This document shows, one piece after another, positions 33,804 through 48,367 of a stretch of DNA of 60,509 nt. The position numbers and the translations under genes are program-made. Position 1 is the stretch's first letter. Each line of letters starts with the position of its first letter. The DNA is from a virus: positions 1 to 60,509 of IMG/VR virus record IMGVR_UViG_3300042377_000486, one strand, 5' to 3'. The notes under the pieces were generated by a model. It searched no databases. It saw only the letters and a program-made list of their open reading frames with translations, and was not told the origin of the DNA.

Positions 33804-34322
33804 TTACGCTGCACACGTGCCAGCTAGACACCTGAATGGTGAGACGCACGGAGGGCTACAAGAGGCAAACCTAGGTGGGAAGAATGGTGGGAAGAATGGT
33901 GGGAAGAATGGGAACCTAGGTGGGAAGAACGGTGGGAAGAACGGTGGAAAGAATGGCGGGAAGAATGGCGGGAAGAATGGCGGGAAGAATGGCGGGAAGA
34001 ATGGCGGGAAGAATGGCGGGGTAGTTATAACTGTATCAGAATACTCAGACCACTCACTCAACCCAACAGCATTTTGTGCACGAACACGATATGCCTGTGA
34101 GGTAGATCCTTCTTGAGCAACTAGAACCGATGTCCCAGCTGTGCTTCCACTTTTAGCGTCGTTGCTTTCCCAGTAATAAAGAGTTATGGGACTTCCTCCA
34201 TCATGTGGGGCTATCCAACTAACGGTATCTTGATTAACTTGCAAAGTTATAGTTGGTGCAACTGGTGGTCGTGGGACAAAGGGACCGATAGCCCCAAAAA
34301 GTGCACCTAGAACACCAGCCAT
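33804..34322 (-). CDS. Fn3 protein with Pro-Phe-Phe repeat tail
   Basis: The 172-aa protein has an Fn3 domain (residues about 22-103, ending SEWSEYSDTVITTPP) followed by a run of PPFF units broken by PPRF, and a Cys-rich end (CSPPCVSPFRCLAGTCAA) with four Cys. The repeat of about 48 residues is encoded by 12-bp DNA repeats. The same Fn3 plus PFF arrangement recurs in the gene at 44993-46270, which continues into a Hint domain. Fn3 domains and aromatic repeats suggest an exposed, possibly fibrous virion protein. The oxygenase island begins just beyond the next gene. Confidence 0.75.
   Translation of the reverse strand: MAGVLGALFGAIGPFVPRPPVAPTITLQVNQDTVSWIAPHDGGSPITLYYWESNDAKSGSTAGTSVLVAQEGSTSQAYRVRAQNAVGLSEWSEYSDTVITTPPFFPPFFPPFFPPFFPPFFPPFFPPFFPPFFPPRFPFFPPFFPPFFPPRFASCSPPCVSPFRCLAGTCAA
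33875..34020 (-). repeat. 12-bp tandem repeats encoding PPFF units
   Basis: On the plus strand the unit reads GGGAAGAATGGC or GGGAAGAATGGT, about a dozen times. On the coding minus strand it gives Pro-Pro-Phe-Phe. Such repeats can change length by slippage or recombination. A related array lies about 11.6 kb away at 45490-45655 in the same orientation. Confidence 0.9.
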
Positions 34323-35368: not shown

Positions 35369-35424
35369 TATGATTATTCTATTTATCAGTTTTAGCTATG
35401 ATACAATTAATTAAGGAGGTTTTT

Positions 35425-36066
35425 GTGTCAGTTCAGGTTATAGACAGCTTTATTTCAGATAATGAGGCTAAGGCTATTATTGAAGCCTTATCCCCGCATT
35501 TGGTGGCTAGTCAGAGATTTGCCATGGCAGAAACCCAGTTTGAAGATTATATGAAAATCTTGAAGAGTATCTATGATGGCAAATCAATATTTGAAAACGA
35601 AGAACATTCTGAAGCTGGGCTCTTATTTACAGAAACAATAAATAGAGTTGCCAAGGAAATTGGTACATTTTATGGAGTAGACGTTGTTCCGATAAACCCA
35701 ATGCTTGCTGAAATATCTGAGGGTGGTCAAAATGAGGGATTACATTGTGACTCTGTTCAGCTAGATGGAAGTCCTTGGGATGATGGAAATACCGCTTTAG
35801 AGGACCTTGAATTTTCAGCATTGGTTTACTTAAATACCTCTGGAATTGACTATGATGGTGGATCAATATACTTCCCAAATCAAGAGCTAGACCTCAGGCC
35901 AAAGGCTGGACAGTTGATATTTTTTCGAGGAGATATAGACCATCCTCACGGAGTTTCCATGGTAACTTCTGGAAATAGGTATACCTTAGTACTATTCTAT
36001 GGACGCTCTGATCGTGTTAAAGCTTATTTGCAGTATAAAGCTGGGGAGCCAATGGGGGAACGTTAG
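35425..36066 (+). CDS. 2-oxoglutarate/Fe(II) oxygenase, prolyl 4-hydroxylase type
   Basis: The start is GTG at 35425, not the ATG at 35398, since AAGGAGG lies 6 nt before the GTG. The 213-aa product has the full iron-binding triad of the family: HCD at residues about 107-109, a distal His in DHPHGV near residue 175, and the 2OG-binding Arg in NRYTL near 185, on a double-stranded beta-helix (DYDGGSIYFPNQELDLRPKA). It is the first of two oxygenase genes on this strand. The substrate is unknown, and P4H similarity suggests a peptide or protein side chain. Confidence 0.85.
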   Translation: MSVQVIDSFISDNEAKAIIEALSPHLVASQRFAMAETQFEDYMKILKSIYDGKSIFENEEHSEAGLLFTETINRVAKEIGTFYGVDVVPINPMLAEISEGGQNEGLHCDSVQLDGSPWDDGNTALEDLEFSALVYLNTSGIDYDGGSIYFPNQELDLRPKAGQLIFFRGDIDHPHGVSMVTSGNRYTLVLFYGRSDRVKAYLQYKAGEPMGER

Positions 36067-36096
36067 GCCCGTAAATTTTACAAAAACTACCCCTTA

Positions 36097-36105
36097 TGAT
36101 ATAAT
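36097..36105 (+). promoter_or_regulatory. extended -10 promoter (TGATATAAT)
   Basis: TGATATAAT on the plus strand lies 35 nt before the ATG at 36141. A weak AGGATA ribosome binding site lies between. Confidence 0.55.
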
Positions 36106-36140
36106 ATTTAAACCAAATTTTTAAAAGATAGGATATAGCA

Positions 36141-36326
36141 ATGAATAAAAATAAAGTAGTAGAAAAAATGGTTGCAATTGCAGAAGAATACAATATTTTG
36201 GCAATACAAGGGGCTGGGATGCCAGAGGACCAGATTGAGCAGATGATTAATCAGGTTAGGCCTCAGCTCTATACAATTCAGGGTGAGATTTATGATTACC
36301 TTCTTTCCCAAGGAATAATTAAATAA
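36141..36326 (+). CDS. small helical protein, unknown function
   Basis: The 61-aa protein is fully helical in appearance (VVEKMVAIAEEYNILAIQGA, then MPEDQIEQMINQVRPQLYTI) with no Cys and no membrane segment. It precedes the cupin-like oxygenase by 3 nt and follows its own promoter, so it may form a unit with that gene. I do not recognise the family. Confidence 0.65.
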   Translation: MNKNKVVEKMVAIAEEYNILAIQGAGMPEDQIEQMINQVRPQLYTIQGEIYDYLLSQGIIK

Positions 36327-36329
36327 ACT

Positions 36330-36911
36330 ATGAAGGAAGTCTGGGCTGAAGCCAAACTAAATAAAAAAATTTTACTTTTTGAAAACTTCCAAATTCCAGA
36401 AATTACATGGGAAGACGTTATGTCTTTTGTATATGAATTATCCAAAATTGAAGCTGATGAAAATTTAAAACAGAGGGCAGCTAGATCTTTTGGCGGCAAC
36501 GCCTCTCTCTTCGGTAGCGTGATATTTAAAGACGGCTACTTTCTTTTTGAGGAGAGCTATCTTTTTCCAATGTTTAAAGGTATTGCCAGACTTATGGAAA
36601 AAGTTAATGGAGGCAATAGCGGAGAAAAATGTGACTATTATGCTAGCCATAGCTCATGTAGCTGTGGCGGACAATGGCACATACAAGCCCTTAGAGTTTC
36701 AATAGGTGAATATGGTGTTTCCAACCATAATGATCCTAATGACGTGCTTTATTGGCAAGTACTGGGAAACTCTCAATGGACAATGAATGATAATGTTGAG
36801 TATATTTTGAAACCAGGAGATCTTTTGTACTTTAACCAAGAAGACGTTCACAGAGTTTTTCAAGATGGTCCCAGAGCTGGGATTATCATTGATGGCCCTA
36901 GAACATTATAA
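36330..36911 (+). CDS. cupin/JmjC-like 2-oxoglutarate oxygenase
   Basis: The 193-aa protein differs from the P4H-like set. The segment GVSNHNDPNDVLYWQVLGNS has an HxD pair and the Trp/Gln pattern of JmjC-like cupin hydroxylases. KPGDLLYFNQEDVHRV supplies a distal His, and AGIIIDGPRTL closes the barrel. The family hydroxylates protein residues (for example in ribosomal proteins) or small molecules. A CxC segment (SHSSCSCGGQWH) lies before the core. It is probably translated with the 61-aa gene upstream. Assignment to JmjC-like rather than another cupin is moderate. Confidence 0.72.
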   Translation: MKEVWAEAKLNKKILLFENFQIPEITWEDVMSFVYELSKIEADENLKQRAARSFGGNASLFGSVIFKDGYFLFEESYLFPMFKGIARLMEKVNGGNSGEKCDYYASHSSCSCGGQWHIQALRVSIGEYGVSNHNDPNDVLYWQVLGNSQWTMNDNVEYILKPGDLLYFNQEDVHRVFQDGPRAGIIIDGPRTL

Positions 36912-36932
36912 ATAACTAATATGAAGGACAAT

Positions 36933-37115
36933 ATGGAATTTAAATACCGTGCTACCCCAGACTTTGCTCTAGATTTTTACAAGGAAAATGGACAAGAAAT
37001 ATCTTTTGACGTAGACTTATTTAACGCTACACTAATGATAGAAGCTGCTGATGAAGATACCGCAGATAAAATTAGAATGACAATTACTGACATTAGAATG
37101 TGGGAAAAGATTTAG
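36933..37115 (+). CDS. small protein, unknown function
   Basis: I use the ATG at 36933 (MEFKYRATPDFAL, 60 aa) since GAAGGA lies 5 nt before it; the ATG at 36921 is in frame but without a ribosome binding site. The protein has an alternating hydrophobic/acidic pattern (FALDFYKENGQEISFDVDLF) followed by a helix rich in acids. It closes the plus-strand group and is 1 nt from a converging gene. Confidence 0.55.
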   Translation: MEFKYRATPDFALDFYKENGQEISFDVDLFNATLMIEAADEDTADKIRMTITDIRMWEKI

Positions 37116-37116
37116 T

Positions 37117-37683
37117 TTAATTAAATAATTCTTTTTTTAATTTTGCTGGTTCGTCTTTTGTTCCATAGACAAAAGCTGTTGAAAAATACCTAGACCTGTT
37201 TCCAACAACTGGCCTAGATCCATGCAGGATGTTTCCTCCGTGAATATATAGGGAATTTTCTTTTGGCTTAATGACTAGACCTATATCTTCATAGTCTAGC
37301 TCACCACCCAGATAGTCGTCGTTGTAGTACAATAGTACGCCATACGAAACGTATAGTGGTGTAGCTACATTCCAAACATCCTTATGATATTTTATGCTTT
37401 GCCCTGGCTCGTATCTCTGTAAACAGGTGTTATCTGGATACATAGAAAAGGACTCAAAAAGATCTTTTATCTTTTTATTAATAACAGGAAATATTGTATC
37501 CCCCTCAAAATCGATGGTTTTGCCATACCAAAAGTTTGCTTGATCCTGGTTTAAAAATGTGTCTTCTGAAAACCAGTCTTGCTCAGAAATATTTTTAATT
37601 ATTTCAAAAACTTCTTTTAGTTCTTGCTTTGTCAGAAAATCTGCAACCTCATAAATATCTTCGTGGAGTTTTGTAATCTGCAT
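37117..37683 (-). CDS. 2-oxoglutarate/Fe(II) oxygenase, P4H type
   Basis: This 188-aa protein has the HKD pair (His100, Asp102), a distal His in ILHGSRPV (near 154) and an Arg in NRSRYF (near 163-165), matching the iron and 2OG sites. YNDDYLGGELDYEDIGLVIK is the core strand pattern that recurs in almost all oxygenases here. The gene is last in the minus-strand series and converges on the plus-strand genes. Substrate unknown. Confidence 0.85.
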   Translation of the reverse strand: MQITKLHEDIYEVADFLTKQELKEVFEIIKNISEQDWFSEDTFLNQDQANFWYGKTIDFEGDTIFPVINKKIKDLFESFSMYPDNTCLQRYEPGQSIKYHKDVWNVATPLYVSYGVLLYYNDDYLGGELDYEDIGLVIKPKENSLYIHGGNILHGSRPVVGNRSRYFSTAFVYGTKDEPAKLKKELFN

Positions 37684-37687
37684 ACTA

Positions 37688-38356
37688 TCACATATACTTA
37701 CTATTAAAGATATTGCTAACCTCTAGATGGTTAACATTAAAATGTTTTGGCAAAGAGGCTACCCAGCGAATAGCCTCTGCCATATCTTCTGCCGTTAATG
37801 AATATGGCTTACTCTCTTCTTGGGTATCGATGGTTCCTGGACAAATTTCTGTCACCTTAATTCCGTATTCTGGAAATTCCATTCTCATGGTATCTACTAG
37901 GGCCATCTCGCCCCTCTTGGCATTGCTGTAGTTTCCTCCGCCACGAAAGGGAACCTTTCCAGATAAGGAGGTGACAAAAATGATAGTAGGAGATTCCGAT
38001 CTTTTAAGAGCTGGCACAAAAAGCTGGGAGAGATACATTGGACCAGAAACGTTTATCTCGTAGGCAGTCTTAAAGTTATCCATTGTCTCATTGATAATAC
38101 TTGTTGGACTAGCTCCGCCACCTGCATTATTAACAAGAAGATCTATGGTTAAGTCGCCATATTTTTCAAAGAATAGTTCAATTTGTTTTGGCTGGGTAAT
38201 ATCTAGCCTGTATGTTTCAACATTTTCAGACTCTAGCTGTGAGACCCTTGATAGATCTCTGGATACGGCAATAACCCTATACCCATTTTCAGATAGGAGC
38301 TTTACTGTTGCATATCCAACACCCTTACTTGCACCAGTTACTATAGCAGTTTTCAT
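37688..38356 (-). CDS. short-chain dehydrogenase/reductase
   Basis: The 222-aa protein has the family's Rossmann motif TGASKGVG at the N-terminus, NNAGG near residue 90, a Ser in VTSLSG and the YxxxK pair in NYSNAKRGE, so the catalytic set looks intact. It uses NAD(P)H to reduce or oxidise a carbonyl/alcohol. It overlaps the upstream oxygenase gene by 4 bp, which suggests a shared pathway: hydroxylation followed by oxidation of the new alcohol, or repair of a product, are both possible. I cannot tell its cofactor preference from motif alone with confidence (SRD after beta2 hints at NADPH). Confidence 0.88.
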   Translation of the reverse strand: MKTAIVTGASKGVGYATVKLLSENGYRVIAVSRDLSRVSQLESENVETYRLDITQPKQIELFFEKYGDLTIDLLVNNAGGGASPTSIINETMDNFKTAYEINVSGPMYLSQLFVPALKRSESPTIIFVTSLSGKVPFRGGGNYSNAKRGEMALVDTMRMEFPEYGIKVTEICPGTIDTQEESKPYSLTAEDMAEAIRWVASLPKHFNVNHLEVSNIFNSKYM

Positions 38357-39204
38357 AGGCCCAACAGCACAATCTCTTTTTTATAGTATTCTTCAAACTC
38401 TACCCAAAATGGAATATTATTTGTTATCTCTACGTTATTACTGTCTCTGTTGAACTTAAGTCTTTTTTCTTCTAACTCCCGCCAAAGATCCTCTCCGTAC
38501 TTTTCTTGAAGCTTTAGCCAAAGAGGGTGTCCAGGGTAATCGTATCTCCAATAATTTCTAATTATATACTTTTCCCCATTAGACACTGCCTTTACTCCGT
38601 GATAGTGTGGTGGGCCAGATGGAAATACAACAATGTCTCCAGCCGATGGCTTATAAGAGTAATCTTCTTTTATAACTGATCGATCGTTTTTATCAAGGAA
38701 TCGGAACATAACATCTCCACCATCATAATCTTCATTTAGATAGAAAACAGCAGTAAGTCCGAACTTTAATCCAGGATTATAAGCAAATTCTCTCTGAAAG
38801 TCTGTGTGGTGCATCATAACATAGTCTTTGTGCTTTTCTAAATTTGGAACATATTTAGCAATATTCCATCCATCAACAGACCAATTATCTAAAACAAAAT
38901 TATTACTTTCTGCATAAAGTTTTGTAGCGTAATAAAACAAATCATCTATTTGGTTTGCAAAATAGTCTTTACCGCCAATGGCTATGTCAGAGTAAGGCTT
39001 TGACTCTTCCCACTCTTCTGTAGTTGGAAATTTTTTAAAGGTTACGGCTGGCCATCCAGGCCCTTCTGACATTTTGCCAAACGTGTACCAGTCTTGCCAT
39101 TCTTGATTACCTTCAAAATATTCTACAAAATCTTTAGGATTTTTTATAGCACCTTTAAAGACCCAAACTAAATCATTTATTTTTTGAATTTCAAAATTAT
39201 ACAC
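38353..39204 (-). CDS. 2-oxoglutarate/Fe(II) oxygenase, P4H type (283 aa)
   Basis: It has an HHTD motif with the HxD pair at residues 133-135, a distal His in PHYHGV (near 202) and a Lys/Arg in GEKYIIRNYW (near 212-216). The core strand segment is YLNEDYDGGDVMFRFLD. It is the longest oxygenase of the cluster, with an extra C-terminal helical tail of about 60 residues rich in Lys/Glu. It overlaps both neighbours by a few bases and so is probably co-translated with the dehydrogenase. Confidence 0.83.
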   Translation of the reverse strand: MYNFEIQKINDLVWVFKGAIKNPKDFVEYFEGNQEWQDWYTFGKMSEGPGWPAVTFKKFPTTEEWEESKPYSDIAIGGKDYFANQIDDLFYYATKLYAESNNFVLDNWSVDGWNIAKYVPNLEKHKDYVMMHHTDFQREFAYNPGLKFGLTAVFYLNEDYDGGDVMFRFLDKNDRSVIKEDYSYKPSAGDIVVFPSGPPHYHGVKAVSNGEKYIIRNYWRYDYPGHPLWLKLQEKYGEDLWRELEEKRLKFNRDSNNVEITNNIPFWVEFEEYYKKEIVLLGL

Positions 39205-39898
39205 TGCATCCCTTTTTCATATCCATATCATTGTGAATCCAGTGGCTAGGAACCATATACTTTACCCCAGATTTTACTGTGTGTGCAATGTGATAGTATG
39301 GTGCTGAGGATGGAAATATAATAACACTTCCAGCACTAGGCTTTACCCCAAAGTCTATTTGGTTATTTGCTACGGCAACCCCATAGTCTAGGTCTGGGCT
39401 AACCACCTGATTGTGGTCTTCATAATCAGACAGCTTAAAGGAGATTTCTCCCCCTTCTGGAACCTCATTGAGATACATGACAAGAGAATACCTCAATGTC
39501 TTGTCTCCGTCTAGCTGGTCATAGTGGGCCCCCATGGATGCCCCAGTATTATATCTTTTAATATTAAAGACTGGGAATAGCCTTGGCTCATCATGATCCC
39601 CAACCGACTCAGCATAGTCTTTGGAAACAGCATAAAGTGCCTTCATAATGTTAATATAAACATACTCCATCTTACTTCTGTATGGCTCTGACATTTGATT
39701 AATTTGAGCAAGGTCAAATGTTTGTGTCTCTCCATAAATAAAATCTTTATCGTCTGAAGCTGTCCAAGTATCCCAAAGCCTACCATTTTCTGCACTATTT
39801 ATTTCAGCAAGTTCAGAAATAGTTTTCATTACTTCTTCAAAATTTTCAATAGCGTCCTCGTAGTAGTAGACCTTTTCGTGCAATATATTTTTTTTCAT
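39197..39898 (-). CDS. 2-oxoglutarate/Fe(II) oxygenase, P4H type
   Basis: The likely start is ATG at 39898 (MKKNILHEKVYY), one base after the previous gene's stop codon, giving 233 aa. The triad is HYD in GAHYDQLD, a distal His in YYHIAHTV, and Lys/Arg in GVKYMVPSHW. The strand core YLNEVPEGGEISFKLSD is present, followed by an insert rich in Asp/Val. The next gene overlaps by 8 bp. Confidence 0.83.
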   Translation of the reverse strand: MKKNILHEKVYYYEDAIENFEEVMKTISELAEINSAENGRLWDTWTASDDKDFIYGETQTFDLAQINQMSEPYRSKMEYVYINIMKALYAVSKDYAESVGDHDEPRLFPVFNIKRYNTGASMGAHYDQLDGDKTLRYSLVMYLNEVPEGGEISFKLSDYEDHNQVVSPDLDYGVAVANNQIDFGVKPSAGSVIIFPSSAPYYHIAHTVKSGVKYMVPSHWIHNDMDMKKGCSV

Positions 39899-39899
39899 G

Positions 39900-40559
39900 T
39901 TAATACCTATTCTTTTCATAATGGTCAATTTCTTTTATAAAGCCAACCAAAACATAGCGAATTGGACCTTCTGATACAGCCTCTACGCCATGTTCGTACT
40001 TTTCGTTACCTGGAAAAATTAACAAAGTTTTTGGTTTAGGCCTTAGCTTTATGTCTAGATTTTTAAAAAATAGCTCTCCATTAACATAGTCATCATTTAT
40101 GTATAGAATAGCTGCATAAGATATTGAGGGATCTGTACGATTATCTGTATGAGACTTTAGGTCTACCCCTGGTTGCATTCTTTGTATTGTAGCTAGTCCA
40201 CTAAGCTCTAAATTAGACTCAGTTTTTAGAGTTAGGCTATTTAGCCTTTCATAAAAAACACGATACTCTTGAGAATCACTAACGTTTAAGTTTTTATCAT
40301 TCCAGTTTTGAGTAATCTCAAACTTTCCTTCAGAAACCAGATTATCAACGTCTTCCCTGCCAAACTTTTGAAGACAGAAACGTTTTAAATTTGAGGTATA
40401 CTCTACTTCCCAATCTTCTTGTGTTGCTGAACCTATTCTATTCCAAATAAAGTCTAGCTCTTCATCTGTAAGAAAGTTTTCAATAGAAATAAGCTCGTCT
40501 GTAATTTCTGTAAACAGAATATCATTTTCTTTAAATATTTCTTTTAGCTTTTCAATCAT
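39900..40559 (-). CDS. 2-oxoglutarate/Fe(II) oxygenase, P4H type
   Basis: The 219-aa protein has HTD in LKSHTDNR, a distal His in YEHGVEAV and an Arg in PIRYVLVG. The core pattern YINDDYVNGELFFKNLDIKL is the recurrent one. The N-terminal half is helical and acidic. It overlaps the upstream gene by 8 bp, continuing the translationally coupled run of oxygenase genes. Confidence 0.84.
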   Translation of the reverse strand: MIEKLKEIFKENDILFTEITDELISIENFLTDEELDFIWNRIGSATQEDWEVEYTSNLKRFCLQKFGREDVDNLVSEGKFEITQNWNDKNLNVSDSQEYRVFYERLNSLTLKTESNLELSGLATIQRMQPGVDLKSHTDNRTDPSISYAAILYINDDYVNGELFFKNLDIKLRPKPKTLLIFPGNEKYEHGVEAVSEGPIRYVLVGFIKEIDHYEKNRY

Positions 40560-41310
40560 CTAAATCGCCATTCATCTTATAAGGATTGCCGTCTAGATCT
40601 AGCTTATATCCATCTTTAAGCAAATCTTGCCATTCTTTTTTTTCTACTTCTTGAGACTCTCTAATTTTTTTCATTTCTTCTACCCAGGCATCTCGGACTT
40701 CTTGTGGGTAAGCGTCTTCAGTGCGATCGTCCCAAAAAGAACCTATGGTATATCTAACGCCAGACTCTATTAGAGTTACTTCGTGCATATTATTAAATCC
40801 ACCATCGAATGCCGCCAGCATTCCAACCTTTGGAGATATCTCTAAGTCTTGTTTAGGAAACTTTAAAGTTCCACCAGAAAAATCATCATTTAAATAAAGA
40901 AATGCTGCATATCTACTTCTTGCAAATGGTCCAGAGTTTCCGTGTTCGTCTGTGTTGTCAGAGTGTACTCTAGCATATGCTCCTGGCTCCCACTTCTGAG
41001 TGTGATAGCCTATCTCTACTATTGTGGCTGGATCTAGGTCATGGACAGAGGCTACTGCTTCAACTATTTTAGCTTTAATTTGTTCAAAAATGTCTGATGG
41101 CAATCCAGCTTTTTCTATTTCTGGATCTCCTTTTTGTGGCAAAACCGAAGAGTAGGATTCATAAAAAGAAATTGGCATCCAGGTAATTGTGCCATTGTCG
41201 GCAACTGAGTCTAGCACTGAAATAATCTTTGAAGAATCTTCTGAGCTTAAAAAGTTTTCGTAGACCACAAGATCTTTTGTTAGCCTGTTTTTGTTATTTA
41301 AGTTTACCAT
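40552..41310 (-). CDS. 2-oxoglutarate/Fe(II) oxygenase, P4H type
   Basis: The 252-aa protein has HSD in RVHSDNTDE, a distal His in NNMHEVTL, and Arg in GVRYTIGSFW. The strand core LYLNDDFSGGTLKFPKQD is present. A C-terminal helical, strongly charged tail of about 45 residues follows. It has a good ribosome binding site (AAGGGAGA) and a TGGTATAAT box overlapping the end of the upstream gene, so it may head a sub-operon. Confidence 0.84.
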   Translation of the reverse strand: MVNLNNKNRLTKDLVVYENFLSSEDSSKIISVLDSVADNGTITWMPISFYESYSSVLPQKGDPEIEKAGLPSDIFEQIKAKIVEAVASVHDLDPATIVEIGYHTQKWEPGAYARVHSDNTDEHGNSGPFARSRYAAFLYLNDDFSGGTLKFPKQDLEISPKVGMLAAFDGGFNNMHEVTLIESGVRYTIGSFWDDRTEDAYPQEVRDAWVEEMKKIRESQEVEKKEWQDLLKDGYKLDLDGNPYKMNGDLDD

Positions 41311-41329
41311 ATAAAGATTCTCCCTTAAA

Positions 41330-41338
41330 ATTATACCA
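41330..41338 (-). promoter_or_regulatory. extended -10 promoter (TGGTATAAT) at oxygenase gene junction
   Basis: On the minus strand TGGTATAAT spans the last codons and stop of the upstream oxygenase gene and is followed by a leader of about 13 nt with AAGGGAGA before the ATG at 41310. Confidence 0.45.
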
Positions 41339-42011
41339 CGACTTGGGGCTTTTCCTGGTGACGCAAGATTGTCCAGAAGAATGGAACGGTATACCTAATT
41401 CCAGACTTTATCTCTGTTACCCCGTGAATATAGTTTTTATCTCCAGGGAAGAAATAGGCTGCCCCAGCTTTTGGTTTGAACTGAATGCCCTGGTTTGGAA
41501 AGTATAACTCTCCGCCCTCATAGTCATCATTTATATAGAAAAGTCCAGCTAGATCGTAGTATGGAAAATCATTAGGCTTGCCAGCATCTGGACCAGTATG
41601 CAACTCTTTATCTGCATGTGGCATTTGTAGCTGTCCAGGAAGCCATCTGACCATAGCTGGGCTAGTAGGATCGGCATCAACGCCAAAGAACTTGTCCACC
41701 TCAATCTTTAGTCTTCGAACCATTTTTTCTATAATAACTGGGACTTCAAGGCTACCTTTTTGAATTGTTGGATAAGTCGCAACACGATTTGCCCAGTAGT
41801 CTGCATCGTAAGTCACTGTGCCGTTTTCGTTGTGATGAGTTTCTGTAACATCCCAGTTAGTATTACTTCTAATAAAATCATTTAGCTTTGACAATTCTTC
41901 TTCAGTCATAAAGTTTTCAAGTGCTACGATGTTATCTGGAGAATCTCCAAAAAACCCAGATGGTGTTATTGACACTCTCTCTACAAAGTGATTATTTCTT
42001 AAATCTTCCAT
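41331..42011 (-). CDS. 2-oxoglutarate/Fe(II) oxygenase, P4H type
   Basis: The 226-aa protein has HAD in QMPHADKE, a distal His in YIHGVTEI and an Arg in GIRYTVPFFW. Core strands: YINDDYEGGELYFPNQGIQF. It is close in pattern to its neighbour at 40552-41310 and to the plus-strand copy at 35425, so these may be the least diverged copies. The ribosome binding site is AGGAGA. Confidence 0.85.
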   Translation of the reverse strand: MEDLRNNHFVERVSITPSGFFGDSPDNIVALENFMTEEELSKLNDFIRSNTNWDVTETHHNENGTVTYDADYWANRVATYPTIQKGSLEVPVIIEKMVRRLKIEVDKFFGVDADPTSPAMVRWLPGQLQMPHADKELHTGPDAGKPNDFPYYDLAGLFYINDDYEGGELYFPNQGIQFKPKAGAAYFFPGDKNYIHGVTEIKSGIRYTVPFFWTILRHQEKPQVVV

Positions 42012-42023
42012 AAAAACATTCTC

Positions 42024-42749
42024 CTATTCGTACTTTCGTTTTTCCCAAACATCTTTTAAGTATACGCCACCATCTGGAACCCTATACTTTTCAGAGTTTT
42101 TCATATTCTTTTTCATGATAGATATTCCAGATTCTTTAAGATACTCAGATGTCCAATCTTCTCTCTTGAATGGCATCATTTGCATATAAGGAGTTCCTGC
42201 TGGAAGAATCCCTACCCAATCTTTTACAACAAAGAATGGCATAGTCCCTGGAAGATTTACCTTATCATTGTCAATTATACCGCTAGTTGTTAAAAATGGT
42301 AGGTCGTACCTGTCATAAGGCTGAGAGTATAAAACGCTGTATCCTTCTGGCACCTCTACCGCCCAGTCTGGATACCAAGCAAAATGTTTTTCGTGATAAC
42401 CCAGAGGGCCATCAAACTGAGGCATCTTTTCTCTATTTTGAATAAAATCTGCATATTTTGGATCTAAAACTTTAGCAGAAATTTTTTGATTTGAGTCAAG
42501 GAAGAACTCAATATCGCAAGGGGTTTTATAAACGTATCCAGTAGTCAGGATGTCATACATTGCTGGGCAAGCTTTCCAGGTTGGAACCTTTCCACCATCT
42601 GGACCAACATAATTTTCTCCATGTGGGTTTTTGTAAAACCTATCTGCAGAAATATACCACTCTGGCAAACTTTTTGATGTGGGCTTTGGGGCAGAGGCAT
42701 CATCTTCAGAAAGCCATCCCTTATTTGTTACAAACTTAATCTTTGGCAT
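42024..42749 (-). CDS. phage cupin-like protein of unknown function (241 aa)
   Basis: The protein starts MPKIKFVTNKGWLSEDD and contains ASAPKPTSKSLPEWY and then PAGTPYMQMMPFKREDWT. The last pattern, together with the next gene, recalls cupin-like phage proteins of the DUF6065-related kind, in which a similar IPANTP...ILP segment occurs. No iron triad is visible. It overlaps the upstream gene by 14 bp, and the two are likely a functional pair. The function is unknown. Its presence inside the oxygenase run suggests a shared process. Confidence 0.7.
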   Translation of the reverse strand: MPKIKFVTNKGWLSEDDASAPKPTSKSLPEWYISADRFYKNPHGENYVGPDGGKVPTWKACPAMYDILTTGYVYKTPCDIEFFLDSNQKISAKVLDPKYADFIQNREKMPQFDGPLGYHEKHFAWYPDWAVEVPEGYSVLYSQPYDRYDLPFLTTSGIIDNDKVNLPGTMPFFVVKDWVGILPAGTPYMQMMPFKREDWTSEYLKESGISIMKKNMKNSEKYRVPDGGVYLKDVWEKRKYE

Positions 42750-43455
42750 TATCTTTTACTTTCATCAAAATTTTCTTAGCTTCGTGATATCCAGCTGGGC
42801 ATCCATTATGATCAACTGCGTCTCTATAAAAGTGTGTCCACTCTCCCTTAGAGTTCATTACCTGGCTAGCCTCTCCTCTTTTAATCATGTTTTGTTGCCA
42901 CTCTTGTGTTTCATATTCTGGCCTACCGCTTTTAATCTCTAGCTCATTTTCCTGGATATCCGATAGGGATATTGGCAAGATAGCTGCAATCGGAGTATTG
43001 GCTGGAATAGTTATCTCAATGTTTGGCTCAGTAATCATCCAAGCAATCGGAAAATCATTTGCCAACACTGATGTGCTGATTAGGGTAGTTATGCACTGTG
43101 CCCCTCTAATAAACTGATTTGGCACTGGCATTGTCAGTAGCGTCAGGTTTTCTTCATTTTCACCAACAAAAACAATGTCAGTATGAAAACTAACCGTCCT
43201 GTTTCCACGAAGTGACATCGCATACTTTTCTCCCGATAATATTTTTACATGATCTGCGGTTGAATCGTTTATACCATCCCATATAAAAACTATGTCTTCT
43301 GGATAGGATATTCCCCAACCCAGTCTATTTGATAATGACATTGGAAAGCATTGATAGGCATGTCTATCAAACGTTATGTCCATCCAGTCACGGTGCATAG
43401 GTAGCTGATCAACACGTGCTAACTTACCCTGAGTATAGGCAAAAACTTTTTTCAC
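42736..43455 (-). CDS. DUF6065-like phage protein
   Basis: The 239-aa protein includes HAYQCFPMSLSNRLGWGISY, then IVFIWDGINDSTADH, then PVPNQFIRGAQCITTLIST and IPANTPIAAILPISLSDIQE. I recall this series from the DUF6065 family found in phages and some bacteria, a beta-barrel of unknown activity. It has several aromatic and Cys residues but no HxD...H. It lies between two oxygenase genes and overlaps the next gene by 14 bp. Family name is from memory and unverified. Confidence 0.72.
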   Translation of the reverse strand: MKKVFAYTQGKLARVDQLPMHRDWMDITFDRHAYQCFPMSLSNRLGWGISYPEDIVFIWDGINDSTADHVKILSGEKYAMSLRGNRTVSFHTDIVFVGENEENLTLLTMPVPNQFIRGAQCITTLISTSVLANDFPIAWMITEPNIEITIPANTPIAAILPISLSDIQENELEIKSGRPEYETQEWQQNMIKRGEASQVMNSKGEWTHFYRDAVDHNGCPAGYHEAKKILMKVKDNAKD

Positions 43456-44177
43456 TAGCTTCCAGTTTCTTCATAAAACTTTGGATTGTGATATTTATCC
43501 GAATAGTCAATCATTGTAACAATCGAATGCTTTATCCCAGACTCAACTGGCAAAGACTTGTGGGGATACATAAAGTTAGATGGAAAAATAAACAAGTCTC
43601 CAGCCCTAGGCTTTGCCTTTATGCCCTGCAACCTAAACTCCAACTCTCCACCAACATAGTCATCGTTAGGATATGCAACCAAGGACACTACGCAGTTATA
43701 AGAATACCCGTGGTCTGTGTGCTCTTGAAAGTGTTGTCCTGGACCATATTTGACAAAGTTCATTGCCTCCCAGTATCTTAACTCTCCAACATTAAAATTT
43801 CTTGAGTAATGCTTTACTGCTGAAAGCTTTCTATCATAAAGGTCTTGCCATAACTGTTGAAGTTTTTGTGAGCTTGGGGATGGATCATTCATAATATCTG
43901 TTTTCTTAAACTTGAAATCATAGCAATCCCTATACTCTGGCATTTTCATTCCATAGCCAACCATGGCTTCCATGTAGTTATAGTAGTTTGACGGGTCATT
44001 AAGAACCTCTTCAAGCCTTTCTACAATATTCATATCTTTTGGCAATACGTCGTGATATACGAAAATTCCAGGAGCTAGCTGCTCTACTGACGACCAGGAC
44101 TCTTGCCCAATGTTGTAGTATTCTTGAATTCTATTGTGTGTTTCTAAGATGTCTTCTTTTATGCTGTTATCGTTCAT
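43455..44177 (-). CDS. 2-oxoglutarate/Fe(II) oxygenase, P4H type
   Basis: The 240-aa protein has HTD in FQEHTDHGYS, a distal His in YPHKSLPV and a Lys/His in GIKHSIVTMID. The strand core YPNDDYVGGELEFRLQG is present. With the next gene (EHASLPM, GTKYSVVVMTD) it makes a sister pair, and both have the unusual PHKSLP/EHASLP ending and a long N-terminal half. It shares one base with the DUF6065-like gene. Confidence 0.84.
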   Translation of the reverse strand: MNDNSIKEDILETHNRIQEYYNIGQESWSSVEQLAPGIFVYHDVLPKDMNIVERLEEVLNDPSNYYNYMEAMVGYGMKMPEYRDCYDFKFKKTDIMNDPSPSSQKLQQLWQDLYDRKLSAVKHYSRNFNVGELRYWEAMNFVKYGPGQHFQEHTDHGYSYNCVVSLVAYPNDDYVGGELEFRLQGIKAKPRAGDLFIFPSNFMYPHKSLPVESGIKHSIVTMIDYSDKYHNPKFYEETGS

Positions 44178-44188
44178 TTTTTTACCAA

Positions 44189-44932
44189 TCAGTATGTTAG
44201 TTTATTTTGATCTTCTTCTCTATACGGGAAGTACCGAAGTCCACCACGGCTATTGTAGTCTGTCATTACAACTACGGAATATTTTGTACCGCTCTTCATT
44301 GGCAAGGAAGCATGTTCATAGACATAAGTCGATGGGAAAACAACAATATCCCCCTGCTTTGGTTTAATGGTTAGGTCAAATCTTGGGAAATATATTTCTC
44401 CGCCCTCATAGTCATCATTTAGGTATGCTACCACGGATACTGTAGTTACGTATGCGGGACCGTGGTCAGCATGGATATTAAAATGTTTTCCAGCACCCTC
44501 GTACTTTACAAAATTAAAAGCTTCATAATAAGAGATGCCAACACCCCAGTATTTTCCATAGTCTTGAACATTTGGATGAATTGCATCAAATGTAATTTGA
44601 TGGATATCGTAGAAATCTGAGTTTTCTTCATTTCTAGGGCCATAGCTGTTGCTACTAATCTTAAAGTCAACGCAGTCTCTGGCGTCAGTGCTTACAGAGT
44701 CTGATTCAGTAACCATTGCTCCCTGCCACCTGTACATCTGGCTAGAACTATTTGTTAGCCTTGATTCTAAGGTTTTTATAATTTTTTCAGAGTTTTCTGG
44801 GGAGATTGCATTGTTGTATAGATTTATACCCATTGCTGGATTCGAAACAACTACGCCTTCGACAGTAGTCCTGTCTGGCATTCTATTTTTATCTGTTTCT
44901 GATCTATCTTTTGTTAACCATTCATTATTCAT
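44189..44932 (-). CDS. 2-oxoglutarate/Fe(II) oxygenase, P4H type
   Basis: I start at ATG 44932 (MNNEWLTKDRSE), 247 aa, 6 nt after a strong promoter; the longer open frame upstream includes the promoter itself. The triad is HAD in NIHADHGPA, His in YEHASLPM and Lys in GTKYSVVVM. The core YLNDDYEGGEIYFPRFDLTI is typical. It is the first gene of the minus-strand oxygenase run and probably leaderless. Confidence 0.84.
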   Translation of the reverse strand: MNNEWLTKDRSETDKNRMPDRTTVEGVVVSNPAMGINLYNNAISPENSEKIIKTLESRLTNSSSQMYRWQGAMVTESDSVSTDARDCVDFKISSNSYGPRNEENSDFYDIHQITFDAIHPNVQDYGKYWGVGISYYEAFNFVKYEGAGKHFNIHADHGPAYVTTVSVVAYLNDDYEGGEIYFPRFDLTIKPKQGDIVVFPSTYVYEHASLPMKSGTKYSVVVMTDYNSRGGLRYFPYREEDQNKLTY

Positions 44933-44938
44933 AAACAA

Positions 44939-44967
44939 ATTATAGCACACCTGCCCACAAGGATCAA
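44939..44967 (-). promoter_or_regulatory. strong promoter of oxygenase operon (TTGATC-17-TATAAT)
   Basis: The minus strand has TTGATC (44962-44967), a 17-nt spacer, and TGCTATAAT (44939-44947), followed by 6 nt and the ATG at 44932. It is the only box seen here with a convincing -35, an optimal spacer, an extended -10 and a leaderless layout together, and it heads the run of oxygenase genes down to 37117. Confidence 0.8.
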
Positions 44968-44992: not shown

Positions 44993-46270
44993 CTATTTAT
45001 TATGAACTAGGTATCCACCAGCTACGAACCAGTCTTGTGGCTCGCAGGCAATTAGATAGGTCATTTCTGGTATCTCTACTTCGTGAAGTGTTTCAATAAC
45101 TTCTTCTCCATAAGTTCCGTTTTCTAAGACCTTTATCAAAATGTCTCCAACAACCAGCTCTAGGGTTGGCAATATCTTGTATAGTCCATCTCTCTTAACG
45201 TATATGGTTTGAGTTATTGAAAACTTTGCAGACTCGTTATTGTTAAAGTATCTACACGGAGACATCTTTGGAGCTAAGTCTGTAATTTCAGTCTCAACAA
45301 CTTCTCCGAATGTAAGAGTTTCTGATGACCAAGCAAACATAGATGGCTTATCATCTCCAGGAGAAGTATCTGTGTTTTCTGCTAGTAAAGGAACAAGAAT
45401 CTTGTCTCTAAGAACAACATCTTTTGCTGGAATCTCGCCTCTAGCTGTTCTAACCAAGGTGTCTTCATGTATACACCAAGCGTGGAACCTAGGAAACCTT
45501 GGTGGAAAAAATGGAAAGAACGGAAAGAACGGTGGGAAGAACGGGAACCTGGGTGGAAAGAATGGAAAGAATGGAGGAAAGAACGGAAAAAACGGTGGGA
45601 AAAATGGAAAGAACGGTGGGAAGAACGGAAAGAACGGTGGGAAAAATGGCGGAGTAGTCGTAATTTCTCCAGAATATGGAGACCATGCTCCTGGGCCATT
45701 TACGTTTTCTGCACGGACACGATACTTTTGAACAGTTGATCCTTCTTGAGTAACAGTAACAGATGTTCCAGTAGTGGTATTGGTTTTAGGAGTTGCACCA
45801 TCTAGTTCGAGACTTTCCCATCTGTATAGAGTAATTGCACTCCCACCACTAGCGGGAGCAACCCAACTAACTATATCTTGAAGTGCATTTGGAGAAGAGG
45901 CAGTTGGTGCAGCTGGTGTTGCAGGCACAGTTGTTACTGCTACTGTAGTTGTTAAAGATTCTGGAGATGTTCCTGCAGCGTCTGTTACAGTTACACTTAC
46001 AGTATAGGTTGTTGAAGATCTAAGGGTTTCTACTATGATTGGGGAGGTGGCTCCTGTAGCTGTTCTGGTTGTCTCCCCAGCTGCAACGGCAGTTACTGTA
46101 AATGAAATTGCTGCAGGAGAACCTGCTGGTAATTCAAAAGATACTGAAGCCGCTCCATCATCAAATGCCCTGCTTGTTCCAACATTTGTGGCAACTACGT
46201 TTATGGGGGCGGGGGAACTTAAAAAGTCATTTTGTTGTGATGACCTTCCTCCCGATTCTTTCTTTGCCAT
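44993..46270 (-). CDS. Fn3 / Pro-Phe-Phe repeat / Hint domain protein
   Basis: The 425-aa protein has two Fn3-like domains (residues about 18-113 and 115-206), a run of PPFF and PFF units with PPRF interruptions (residues 207-262), and a C-terminal Hint domain of about 160 residues. The Hint begins with Cys in AWCIHEDTLVRTARGEIPAK and ends in GGYLVHNK, with HN followed by only one residue. The block-B position reads ITQTIYVKRDG, where the usual His appears to be Ile. Self-cleavage at the N-terminal side may therefore be impaired or altered. This is the repeat-bearing neighbour of the oxygenase operon. Confidence 0.85.
   Translation of the reverse strand: MAKKESGGRSSQQNDFLSSPAPINVVATNVGTSRAFDDGAASVSFELPAGSPAAISFTVTAVAAGETTRTATGATSPIIVETLRSSTTYTVSVTVTDAAGTSPESLTTTVAVTTVPATPAAPTASSPNALQDIVSWVAPASGGSAITLYRWESLELDGATPKTNTTTGTSVTVTQEGSTVQKYRVRAENVNGPGAWSPYSGEITTTPPFFPPFFPFFPPFFPFFPPFFPFFPPFFPFFPPRFPFFPPFFPFFPFFPPRFPRFHAWCIHEDTLVRTARGEIPAKDVVLRDKILVPLLAENTDTSPGDDKPSMFAWSSETLTFGEVVETEITDLAPKMSPCRYFNNNESAKFSITQTIYVKRDGLYKILPTLELVVGDILIKVLENGTYGEEVIETLHEVEIPEMTYLIACEPQDWFVAGGYLVHNK
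45490..45655 (-). repeat. PFF-encoding tandem repeats
   Basis: Plus-strand units such as GGAAAGAACGGTGGGAAGAA repeat in varied register, giving PFF and PPFF on the coding strand. The array is more diverged than the one at 33875-34020. Both arrays are direct repeats around the oxygenase island. Confidence 0.85.
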
Positions 46271-46282
46271 TTATTCTGCCCC

Positions 46283-48367
46283 TTAAGCCTTAAGATCTCC
46301 ATAGAGAATCCAGCTATCTGTTCCACGCTTTAATATTGTAGCAGATGACCACTGTGTTCGTAGCTTATTTCCTGGAGTTCTGTTTAAAGTCACACCCACA
46401 ACGGCATCAATAGTTACCTCTCCAGTGTTTGTTTGGAAAATGTCCATAGATGCTCCAATTGGCCAAGCTAATGTTGCATTAGTTGGAATTGTAAAAGTCA
46501 TCGGGCTGGTAGAGTTCATCTCAATAACGCTATCTTGATGTACAAGAGTATCTAAAGTATAACTTGCAGTCTTTTCTACAAATGTAGTTAGTGATGGGAC
46601 ACCAGCCTTAGTCTGGGTGCCGTCAGAAAAAGCTACTCCAGAGCTAGCCGTAACTACACCAGAAAATGTTGGGGCATTGACAACAGACACCTGAAGACCC
46701 GAAACGCTAACGTTAGTTCCAGCAGTAACTGTTCCAGCTCCAGAAAATTGTGCCCACAGAATGTTATCGGTTCCAATAGTATTTACTTCATTTTCAACGA
46801 CCCACGAAGTAGTGTTGTAAAGTGTTCCATTTTCTATGAATGCTAGGTCACCTCCAGCTATTTCGGCTGCTGAGTTAAAGTCATCTGCCCTAGTAAGAAC
46901 AGTTGAAGAGGTTCTCACATAAATACCATTATGGGCTGCGTTTGCTTGATTCTTAACAAGAATGCGGTCTCCGTTTGTTAGGGTATGGCCATCAATAACA
47001 GTTAAGGCAGTTCCAAGAACTAGAGTTGCTCCAACTCCGTCAGTTCCATTATCATAGGTGACTGTTCCTCCAGATAAAACTGCCAAAGTATCAGGTGTAG
47101 CGATATGTGCGGCTTCATGAATATGCAGTCCTGCTGAAACATTATCTACATATGCCTTTGTAGCTGCATGTAAGGCTTGTGTTGGATCTCCATCAAGAAT
47201 AATTTTTCCAGTCATAGTGCCGCCAGAAAGATTTAGCTTAGCATCTAAAGCAGTCTGCTGAGCTGTGGAGATGGGCTTGTTGGCATCTGAAGTGTTGTCG
47301 ACATTTCCAAGACCAACCATAGAAGAAGTAATACCAGAAACAGTGCCCGTAAAAGTTGGGGCTGCAAGATTTGCTTTTGTTGTCTCCAGATTTGTAAGTT
47401 GAGTCTGAACAGAAGAAGTTGCACCATTCAGATAACCAATTTCTGTTGCAGAAACATCTCCAATAGAAGTGGTGCCTGGAAGGGATACAGTGCCACCAAA
47501 AGTAGGGCTATTAAGTGGTGCATAGATTCCAGTTGCCGTTGCTGAGCTTAACTTGGCATCAATTTGAGTTTGGAGTGCTGAGGTTACCCCATTCAGATGG
47601 CCAAGTTCATCAGCAGATACGTCCCCGATTGTTGTTGTTAGTGGAAGCACCACGTTTCCTGTAAAAGTTGGGGCGGCAAGGTTTGCCTTTGCTGTGTCTA
47701 AATTTGTAAACTGAGTTTGGATAGCTGAAGTAACCCCATTAAGATATCCAATTTCAATATCTGATACGTCAGTAACCTTGTCTTGCTTGTTTCCAAACTG
47801 GGTCTGAATTGCAGAAGTTACTCCATTTAGATATCCGATTTCAGTATCCGATACGTCAGCAACCTTGTCCTGTTTAGAATTATTTATTGAAGTAATAGAA
47901 TTATTTATTGTACTAATAGAAGTATTTATTGTACTAATGTCTCCCTCGATCACGCCATCAGCTAATTGAAGAGCAGTGTCAAGGTTCAATATGGACGTAT
48001 CTACGTAGCTTTTTGTTGCTGCGTGTAAGTTTGTTGTCGGGGCTCCAGAAAGTGTCAGGGCACCAGTCATAGAGTCTCCAGCTCTAGCTACAAAGTCACC
48101 TCCACCGCCAGCTAACAGATTACTTCCGACTCCTATTGAAGCTGCAGATAAATCAATATATGCACCACGATTTGATCCGCCTTTATCAAAAATACGAAGT
48201 TTGTTTTGATGAATATCGATAGCTATGTCACCAGATAGGGTTGTATTTGTTTGTGGTTTAGCTAGGTTTAGCTGGCCACCCTCGTCTCCCCCGACAGCGG
48301 CAGCAGTTATCTCACCATTAACGTCAAGTCCATTTTTGACTTTAAAGTTTTTGTTTGAAGTTGCCAA
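46283..48367 (-). CDS. long tail fibre with phage-tail repeats (694 aa)
   Basis: The start is TTG at 48367 (MATSNKNFKVKNGLDVNG), supported by a GAGGTG ribosome binding site and by the alignable N-terminus of the next fibre. The shaft has several EIGYLNGVTSAIQTQ repeats. A central domain (GLHIHEAAHIATPDTLAVLS then GDRILVKNQANAAHNGIYV) recurs in the next fibre. The C-terminal beta domain ends TLKRGTDSWILYGDLKA-like and matches the end of the gene at 52964. It probably binds the host cell as a trimer. Confidence 0.86.
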   Translation of the reverse strand: MATSNKNFKVKNGLDVNGEITAAAVGGDEGGQLNLAKPQTNTTLSGDIAIDIHQNKLRIFDKGGSNRGAYIDLSAASIGVGSNLLAGGGGDFVARAGDSMTGALTLSGAPTTNLHAATKSYVDTSILNLDTALQLADGVIEGDISTINTSISTINNSITSINNSKQDKVADVSDTEIGYLNGVTSAIQTQFGNKQDKVTDVSDIEIGYLNGVTSAIQTQFTNLDTAKANLAAPTFTGNVVLPLTTTIGDVSADELGHLNGVTSALQTQIDAKLSSATATGIYAPLNSPTFGGTVSLPGTTSIGDVSATEIGYLNGATSSVQTQLTNLETTKANLAAPTFTGTVSGITSSMVGLGNVDNTSDANKPISTAQQTALDAKLNLSGGTMTGKIILDGDPTQALHAATKAYVDNVSAGLHIHEAAHIATPDTLAVLSGGTVTYDNGTDGVGATLVLGTALTVIDGHTLTNGDRILVKNQANAAHNGIYVRTSSTVLTRADDFNSAAEIAGGDLAFIENGTLYNTTSWVVENEVNTIGTDNILWAQFSGAGTVTAGTNVSVSGLQVSVVNAPTFSGVVTASSGVAFSDGTQTKAGVPSLTTFVEKTASYTLDTLVHQDSVIEMNSTSPMTFTIPTNATLAWPIGASMDIFQTNTGEVTIDAVVGVTLNRTPGNKLRTQWSSATILKRGTDSWILYGDLKA

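Follow-up and report, generated by a model that had tools for sequence, protein, structure and literature searches.

The IMG/VR virus record IMGVR_UViG_3300042377_000486, analysed here as a whole (60,509 bases; hereafter, the window), encodes a portal, a head maturation protease, and a major head protein, together with a tail module and a primase/helicase pair. The capsid protease shares about 40% identity with proteins of Streptomyces phages, and relatives of this protease are encoded on 393 IMG/VR stretches. No DNA nearly identical to the window was found in GenBank phages. The window contains an oxygenase island, i.e., a group of nine 2-oxoglutarate (2OG)/Fe(II) oxygenase genes, one JmjC/cupin-type gene, one short-chain dehydrogenase/reductase (SDR) gene, and the genes of two non-cupin proteins within 9.6 kb, named A to M in Table 1. 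An original prediction made from the sequence had recognised these ten oxygenases and the dehydrogenase, and this inventory holds, with the boundaries moved from 35425-44932 to 35398-44950.

The genes M-L-K-J-I-H-G-F-E-D-C form a single head-to-tail block of eleven genes (hereafter, the cassette) in which the junctions measure -29 to +20 nt; the N gene is located at the head of this block, only 42 nt upstream of M. According to this operon-like layout, the natural unit is the operon from N to C. The oxygenase genes had been described as lying side by side, which is true of the block from M to C but not of A and B, two separate genes on the opposite strand. The PF13640 (2OG-FeII_Oxy_3) family matches nine open reading frames (ORFs) with E values from 1e-5 to 2e-12, and a scan of the whole record recovered exactly the same nine ORFs, all of them over the curated cut-off; protein C is slightly below it in a single-protein scan (26.4 vs 27 bits). 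The HxD motif and the distal His are kept in the alignment of all nine enzymes, as anticipated, whereas the residue that anchors 2OG, expected to be Arg throughout, is Arg in A, C, G, H, and I and Lys in E, F, L, and M. Known prolyl hydroxylases use either Arg or Lys for this purpose.

Both N and a second protein, encoded about 9 kb away, contain fn3 domains followed by aromatic-proline arrays such as PPFFPPFFPPFFPPFF. The constant features of these arrays across phages are the Pro-Pro dyad and Phe: in 173 distinct array proteins, the 1,707 spacers between Pro-Pro dyads contain Phe in 99.8% of the cases and Phe-Phe in 85%. The repeat appears as FFPP, YFPP, or HFPP, and also as hexads, e.g., GFFAPP and SFFAPP. 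The array is preceded by fn3, He_PIG, or PASTA modules and followed by Hint/intein-like domains, found behind many arrays in other phages too, by Peptidase_S74, which is a tail-fibre chaperone domain, or by Cys-rich ends. The Hint/intein-like domain of N starts at Cys266, right behind the array, and ends in VHNK; in the family this Cys is invariant, and most alignment rows have a C-terminal ...VHN. Self-processing of N would expose its array.

The array and the cassette are exchanged as a module. In relatives that lack the cassette, the fn3 protein has another tail in place of FFPP (FGFSPFGFSP, FGVFGFGPFG, or FSFAPFSFAP), and the FFPP tail is also missing from the second, non-adjacent fn3 protein. 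Since the array comes and goes with the cassette and is found on proteins unrelated to each other, it behaves like a target that is recognised in trans. Orthologous fn3 proteins with Phe/Gly-rich aromatic low-complexity tails are encoded at L009:3847-4302, L058:1302-2027, and L044:1992-2714. The enzyme content of the cassette also differs with the type of repeat, as M was found in none of 19 hexad loci, which keep L, K, I, and H, vs 62% of 76 tetrad loci, a difference that kinship may confound. The antisense strand of the arrays (window positions 33817-34116 and 45240-45731, plus strand) contains open frames rich in GGKNGGKN, which are likely to be false genes in automatic annotation.

The association of arrays and oxygenases was sampled from both sides. 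On the array side, the IMG/VR records were chosen solely by DNA coding for FFPPFFPPFFP (n = 50), and PF13640 was present in 47 of them, mostly in 6-11 copies. The family was found in only 4 of 40 control records chosen by a tail-fibre motif and in 7 of 50 chosen by collagen-like (GPP)n, the latter with at most three copies each (Fisher P ~4e-17 and ~5e-17, respectively, treating the records as independent though the phages are related). This result ruled out collagen-like proteins as partners of the cassette and, with them, a collagen-type Gly-X-Y system. The two oxygenase-rich control records themselves carry arrays, FFPP in G113 and (PPGFFA)n in G108. An oxygenase-rich island like this one is not a chance occurrence, given the low frequency of the family in the tail-fibre controls and the maximum of five such oxygenases per genome, without assigned substrate, in a table of 16 published cyanomyoviruses (PMC3037559).

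On the enzyme side, 80 loci were chosen solely by similarity to K. All of them contain at least two oxygenases (median 5), and an array is present in all of the 51 loci with at least 3 kb of upstream sequence (49 by rule and two on reading, one of these frameshifted). This two-way association is also polar: in 116 of 131 cases, the 2.5 kb downstream of the array include an oxygenase (109 on the same strand, with a median gap of 87 nt), whereas the upstream side does so in only 6 of 83. Among 80 capsid-related loci, arrays with at least five FFP were confined to island-bearing genomes, and relaxing the scan brought in two more cases, short or truncated, one of them beside cassette genes. This internal control within the capsid family, together with the several structural backbones described below, argues that kinship is not the whole cause of the association. 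Outside viral records, the FFPP pattern was found in only 17 stretches in 84,980 bacterial genomes; three of those loci also contain oxygenases and are probably phage contigs in metagenome-assembled genomes (MAGs). The MAG contigs that carry both FFPP arrays and oxygenases come from Verrucomicrobiales (L448), Gammaproteobacteria (L452 and L459), and Chitinophagaceae (L460), which might hint at the hosts.

Table 1. Features of the oxygenase island, the array proteins, and the adjoining tail gene (positions in the window).
Feature	Position	Strand	Evidence
A, 2OG/Fe(II) oxygenase, separate gene	35398..36066	+	PF13640 1.9e-10
B, JmjC_2/cupin-type oxygenase, separate gene that varies among relatives	36330..36911	+	PF08007 1.4e-5
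C, 2OG/Fe(II) oxygenase, final operon gene	37117..37683	-	PF13640 1.4e-5
D, SDR, motifs TGASKGVG and YSNAK	37688..38356	-	PF00106 3.3e-39
E, 2OG/Fe(II) oxygenase	38353..39204	-	PF13640 3e-11
F, 2OG/Fe(II) oxygenase	39197..39928	-	PF13640 5.4e-10
G, 2OG/Fe(II) oxygenase	39900..40559	-	PF13640 1.4e-9
H, 2OG/Fe(II) oxygenase	40552..41310	-	PF13640 1.8e-8
I, 2OG/Fe(II) oxygenase, core member	41331..42011	-	PF13640 1.3e-6; profile matches prolyl 3-hydroxylase 1 and bacterial P4H
J, phrog_7084, weak similarity to K	42024..42749	-	phrog_7084 6.7e-30; hhalign prob 76
K, DUF6065, predicted dUTPase-like fold, cassette marker	42736..43455	-	PF19541 2e-27
L, 2OG/Fe(II) oxygenase, predicted fold closest to PHD2/P4H	43455..44177	-	PF13640 2.1e-12; pLDDT 88.8; Foldseek E 7e-11
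M, 2OG/Fe(II) oxygenase	44189..44950	-	PF13640 2.1e-12; HAD...H...K
N, fn3 protein, (FFPP)n array followed by a C-terminal Hint/intein-like domain, operon head, candidate substrate	44993..46270	-	fn3 and Hint profile matches
Hint/intein-like domain of N, immediately after the array	44993..45475	-	profile of 11 such domains: radA intein 1.2e-6, bacterial intein-like domain 1.4e-5
Aromatic-proline array of N, PPFFPPFFPFFPPFFPFFPP..., 8 PP and 13 FF	45500..45652	-	sequence reading
O, tail-fibre-like protein, encoded upstream of N	46283..48367	-	ORF; homologs before the array gene in most related loci
Second fn3 protein, (FFPP)n array followed by a Cys-rich end, also a candidate substrate	33804..34322	-	ORF, fn3 match
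Aromatic-proline array of the second fn3 protein, 13 PP and 11 FF	33849..34019	-	sequence reading

The island had been regarded as a peculiarity of one phage. However, the marker gene K is encoded on at least 593 IMG/VR stretches, and many uncultured phages carry the cassette in the same gene order. Among 30 capsid-related records, six contain 6-13 oxygenases and 23 contain 0-4, while a further one, cut at the contig end, has two. The order M-L-K-J-I-H-G-F-E-D-C is maintained in the island-bearing records, with about 50-94% protein identity, whereas the flanking fibre genes are variable; the cassette of G007 lacks G, and those of G017 and G019 have an additional H-like gene. A gene resembling glutathione peroxidase was also observed near 13 array/oxygenase loci, e.g., L200:9279-9896. 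The portal of 26 large array-bearing records is 69-76% identical to that of the window in seven, 53-54% identical in seven, 21% identical in one, and undetected in 11, some of which may lack that part of the genome. This wide range indicates that the phages carrying the cassette have several structural backbones.

A tree of 149 oxygenases, built by a quick method and with long branches and several weak forks at depth, groups the proteins by letter into separate clades that each span different phages, M and L being sisters. The pairwise ratio of nonsynonymous to synonymous substitution rates (dN/dS), where computable, is about 0.03-0.23 for the oxygenases, with dS near saturation, which indicates purifying selection. 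On these grounds, the duplications are old and the members have been separately maintained, and the paralogs are older than the split between their carrier phages. The repeated duplication or capture that had been proposed is thus not a recent event, and recent tandem duplication was discarded because every letter has its own clade. The divergence of the copies and the purifying selection also ruled out a simple dosage effect, as the original prediction had anticipated.

Concerning the type of enzyme, the profiles of I and L match the solved structures of prolyl 3-hydroxylase 1 (P3H1), a bacterial prolyl 4-hydroxylase (P4H), PiuC, and lysyl hydroxylases. The structure of L, the only oxygenase modelled, was predicted with a predicted local distance difference test (pLDDT) score of 88.8 and has the double-stranded beta-helix that had been expected, with PHD2 (Foldseek E 7e-11), the EF-Tu prolyl hydroxylase, an algal P4H, and the PBCV-1 enzyme vCPH as its nearest structures. 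The Tet_JBP matches of the window oxygenases are all under the Pfam cut-off. Considering these nearest relatives and the association with Pro-Pro arrays, the best reading is that the cassette oxygenases are of the peptidyl-hydroxylase type. The PHROG models "DNA endonuclease V" (274), "DNA endonuclease" (2297), and "ferrochelatase" (3531) align to the window 2OG oxygenases, and GenBank genes labelled "ferrochelatase" also align to 2OG oxygenases; some of these phage annotations may be wrong.

K and J had been taken for cupin-like proteins, but no cupin match was obtained for either of them in profile scans. K belongs to the DUF6065 family, and its predicted model (pLDDT 86.5) is dUTPase-like, with Z ~10 and a best Foldseek E of only 0.018; the dUTPase signature could not be recognised by eye in the family consensus, no motif scan having been made. 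Neither K nor J has credible sequence relatives among solved structures, nor does K match any dUTPase sequence of the PDB, and K homologs were not found in 50,697 GenBank phage records at E 1e-3. A distant homolog of J, which belongs to phrog_7084, is present in 49 GenBank records, mainly of haloarchaeal tailed viruses. In HSTV-2 (KC117376; L572) it is gene 40, located beside a thymidylate synthase gene and near a DNA polymerase gene, a neighbourhood from which J may be of nucleotide-related ancestry. J can also occur without oxygenases, since the 112-kb relative G005 contains two tandem J homologs (L094:15721-17426) and no PF13640 match.

Taking these data together, we consider it likely that the island is a tail-protein modification cassette whose operon oxygenases hydroxylate the Phe/Pro arrays of the phage's own tail-associated proteins. 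The original prediction had listed phage peptides among the possible substrates, beside nucleosides and wall sugars, but had missed the (FFPP)n tail-associated proteins, whose link to the operon makes them a specific candidate substrate. The first product of the operon would be the tail-associated fn3 protein N, the C-terminal part of which is the array, followed by the oxygenases M, L, I, H, G, F, E, and C, the SDR D, and the putative helper proteins K and J. It is known that P4H and P3H hydroxylate Pro-Pro in collagen. In the cassette, different paralogs would hydroxylate different positions of the array, most likely C3 and C4 of both prolines and perhaps the phenylalanines, and D could further oxidise some of the hydroxyls. 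The second array protein would be a further target of the oxygenases, in trans, and the Hint domain of N may then cut itself off, leaving the array C-terminal. In this way, an otherwise very hydrophobic sequence would be turned into a polar and possibly adhesive appendage, displayed at the tail of the virion for contact with the host or a surface, which may serve adsorption.

Several observations weigh against this proposal. The substrate of a 2OG oxygenase is not predictable from its fold, nine is a large number of enzymes for a repeat of four residues, and proline hydroxylation alone does not account for K, J, and D. Moreover, association alone is no proof of an enzyme-substrate relation, as both partners could belong to one appendage module, and no oxygenase was found within 2.5 kb downstream in 15 of 131 arrays, nor anywhere in 3 of 50 FFPP records, although these records are fragments. 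Finally, PMC7019647 cites an amino-acid analysis in which PBCV-1 virions contained no hydroxyproline in spite of the P4H of this virus.

Three other explanations have been considered. The oxygenases could tailor a small molecule or a glycan, such as a host wall sugar, a lipid, or a natural product, and the array protein would then be a neighbouring adhesin that benefits from it. This is unlikely: 2OG oxygenases do act on many kinds of substrates, the operon includes an SDR, and a weak sulfotransferase-like or glutathione-peroxidase gene is found near a few cassettes, but no glycosyltransferase, sugar-nucleotide, or carrier-protein gene recurs among the common neighbours, the closest solved relatives are peptidyl hydroxylases, and a specific repeat that tracks the cassette on unrelated proteins would be left unexplained. 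It seems rather less probable still that arrays and oxygenases have been inherited together as passengers of a single hypervariable tail-fibre locus, without any enzymatic relation. The locus adjoins variable fibre genes, and such hot spots gather cargo; nevertheless, the fixed order and polarity, the purifying selection, the association over several portal lineages, and the fact that a second, non-adjacent protein also loses its FFPP tail where the cassette is missing argue against such passengers.

A modification of nucleotides or DNA appears very improbable. Some 2OG oxygenases oxidise thymine or cytosine, the predicted fold of K is dUTPase-like, and the distant J homolog of the halovirus HSTV-2 adjoins a thymidylate synthase gene. 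However, the oxygenases match prolyl and lysyl hydroxylases, with Tet_JBP only below the cut-off, no dUTPase signature was recognisable by eye in the K consensus, and the cassette is located behind a tail gene, with arrays that a nucleotide substrate would not explain. The hydroxylation of the arrays is therefore favoured over these rivals, which explain less well the two-way association with a repeat found on unrelated proteins.

Several known systems come close to the cassette. A prolyl 4-hydroxylase of PBCV-1 was reportedly studied by Eriksson et al. in 1999 together with proline-rich viral peptides. The vCPH of this virus (PDB 5c5t) is likewise a virus-encoded, P4H-like enzyme proposed to hydroxylate the proline of virus-encoded proteins, but it is a single enzyme of an algal virus, with neither a multi-enzyme operon nor an FFPP array. 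The collagen prolyl 3- and 4-hydroxylases, the HIF hydroxylase PHD2, and the EF-Tu prolyl hydroxylase, which are the closest solved relatives, share the fold and the metal triad with the cassette enzymes, although the identity is below ~21%. In collagen, two enzyme classes act on neighbouring Pro-Pro positions, which is the model proposed for the cassette; nevertheless, the collagen repeat is Gly-Pro-Pro instead of Phe-Phe-Pro-Pro, and collagen-like phage proteins are not associated with the cassette. In operons for ribosomally synthesised and post-translationally modified peptides (RiPPs), as in the cassette, the candidate substrate gene comes first and the modifying enzymes are encoded directly downstream, but the RiPP substrate is a small peptide and the candidate of the cassette is a multidomain tail-associated protein.

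Among phages, the 2OG-Fe(II) oxygenases of T4-like cyanophages (phrog_61; Sullivan et al., 2010, PMC3037559) belong to the same superfamily, and cyanophage genes are the best GenBank phage matches of the window oxygenases (25-35% identity). Unlike the latter, they do not form an operon with K and have no reported array partner. A recent survey describes PHD-like phage proteins as widespread (PMC12774648), but our literature search (phage hydroxyproline, tail fibres with oxygenases, and DUF6065) found no paper tying phage oxygenases to tail proteins or arrays. The enzymes are of a known kind, the cassette and its array partner are new, and there is a real chance that they constitute a new kind of system. 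Most likely, the ten oxygenase genes are part of a conserved toolkit that modifies tail repeats, i.e., a dedicated protein-modification system undescribed in bacterial viruses. A broader proposal, to which we give about even chances, is that widespread, largely aquatic uncultured phages build a hyper-hydroxylated Phe/Pro tail appendage by means of a dedicated operon of several position-specific hydroxylases; this would be the first multi-enzyme protein-hydroxylation system known in phages and a natural counterpart of the chemistry of collagen or of mussel adhesives, in which K and J would represent new accessory families.

In aquatic phages, the 2OG oxygenases rank with the most frequent metabolic genes that lack an explanation, and the roles proposed for them range from DNA repair to the exploitation of host nitrogen signalling (PMC3037559). 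A large class of them is now tied to a specific co-encoded protein repeat, and thus, the question of the substrate can be addressed by mass spectrometry of one purified protein. If our proposal is true, the finding would moreover provide peptidyl hydroxylases as a modular set that goes with a short repeat tag, and some phage tail appendages would bear a chemistry that is invisible to genome annotation.

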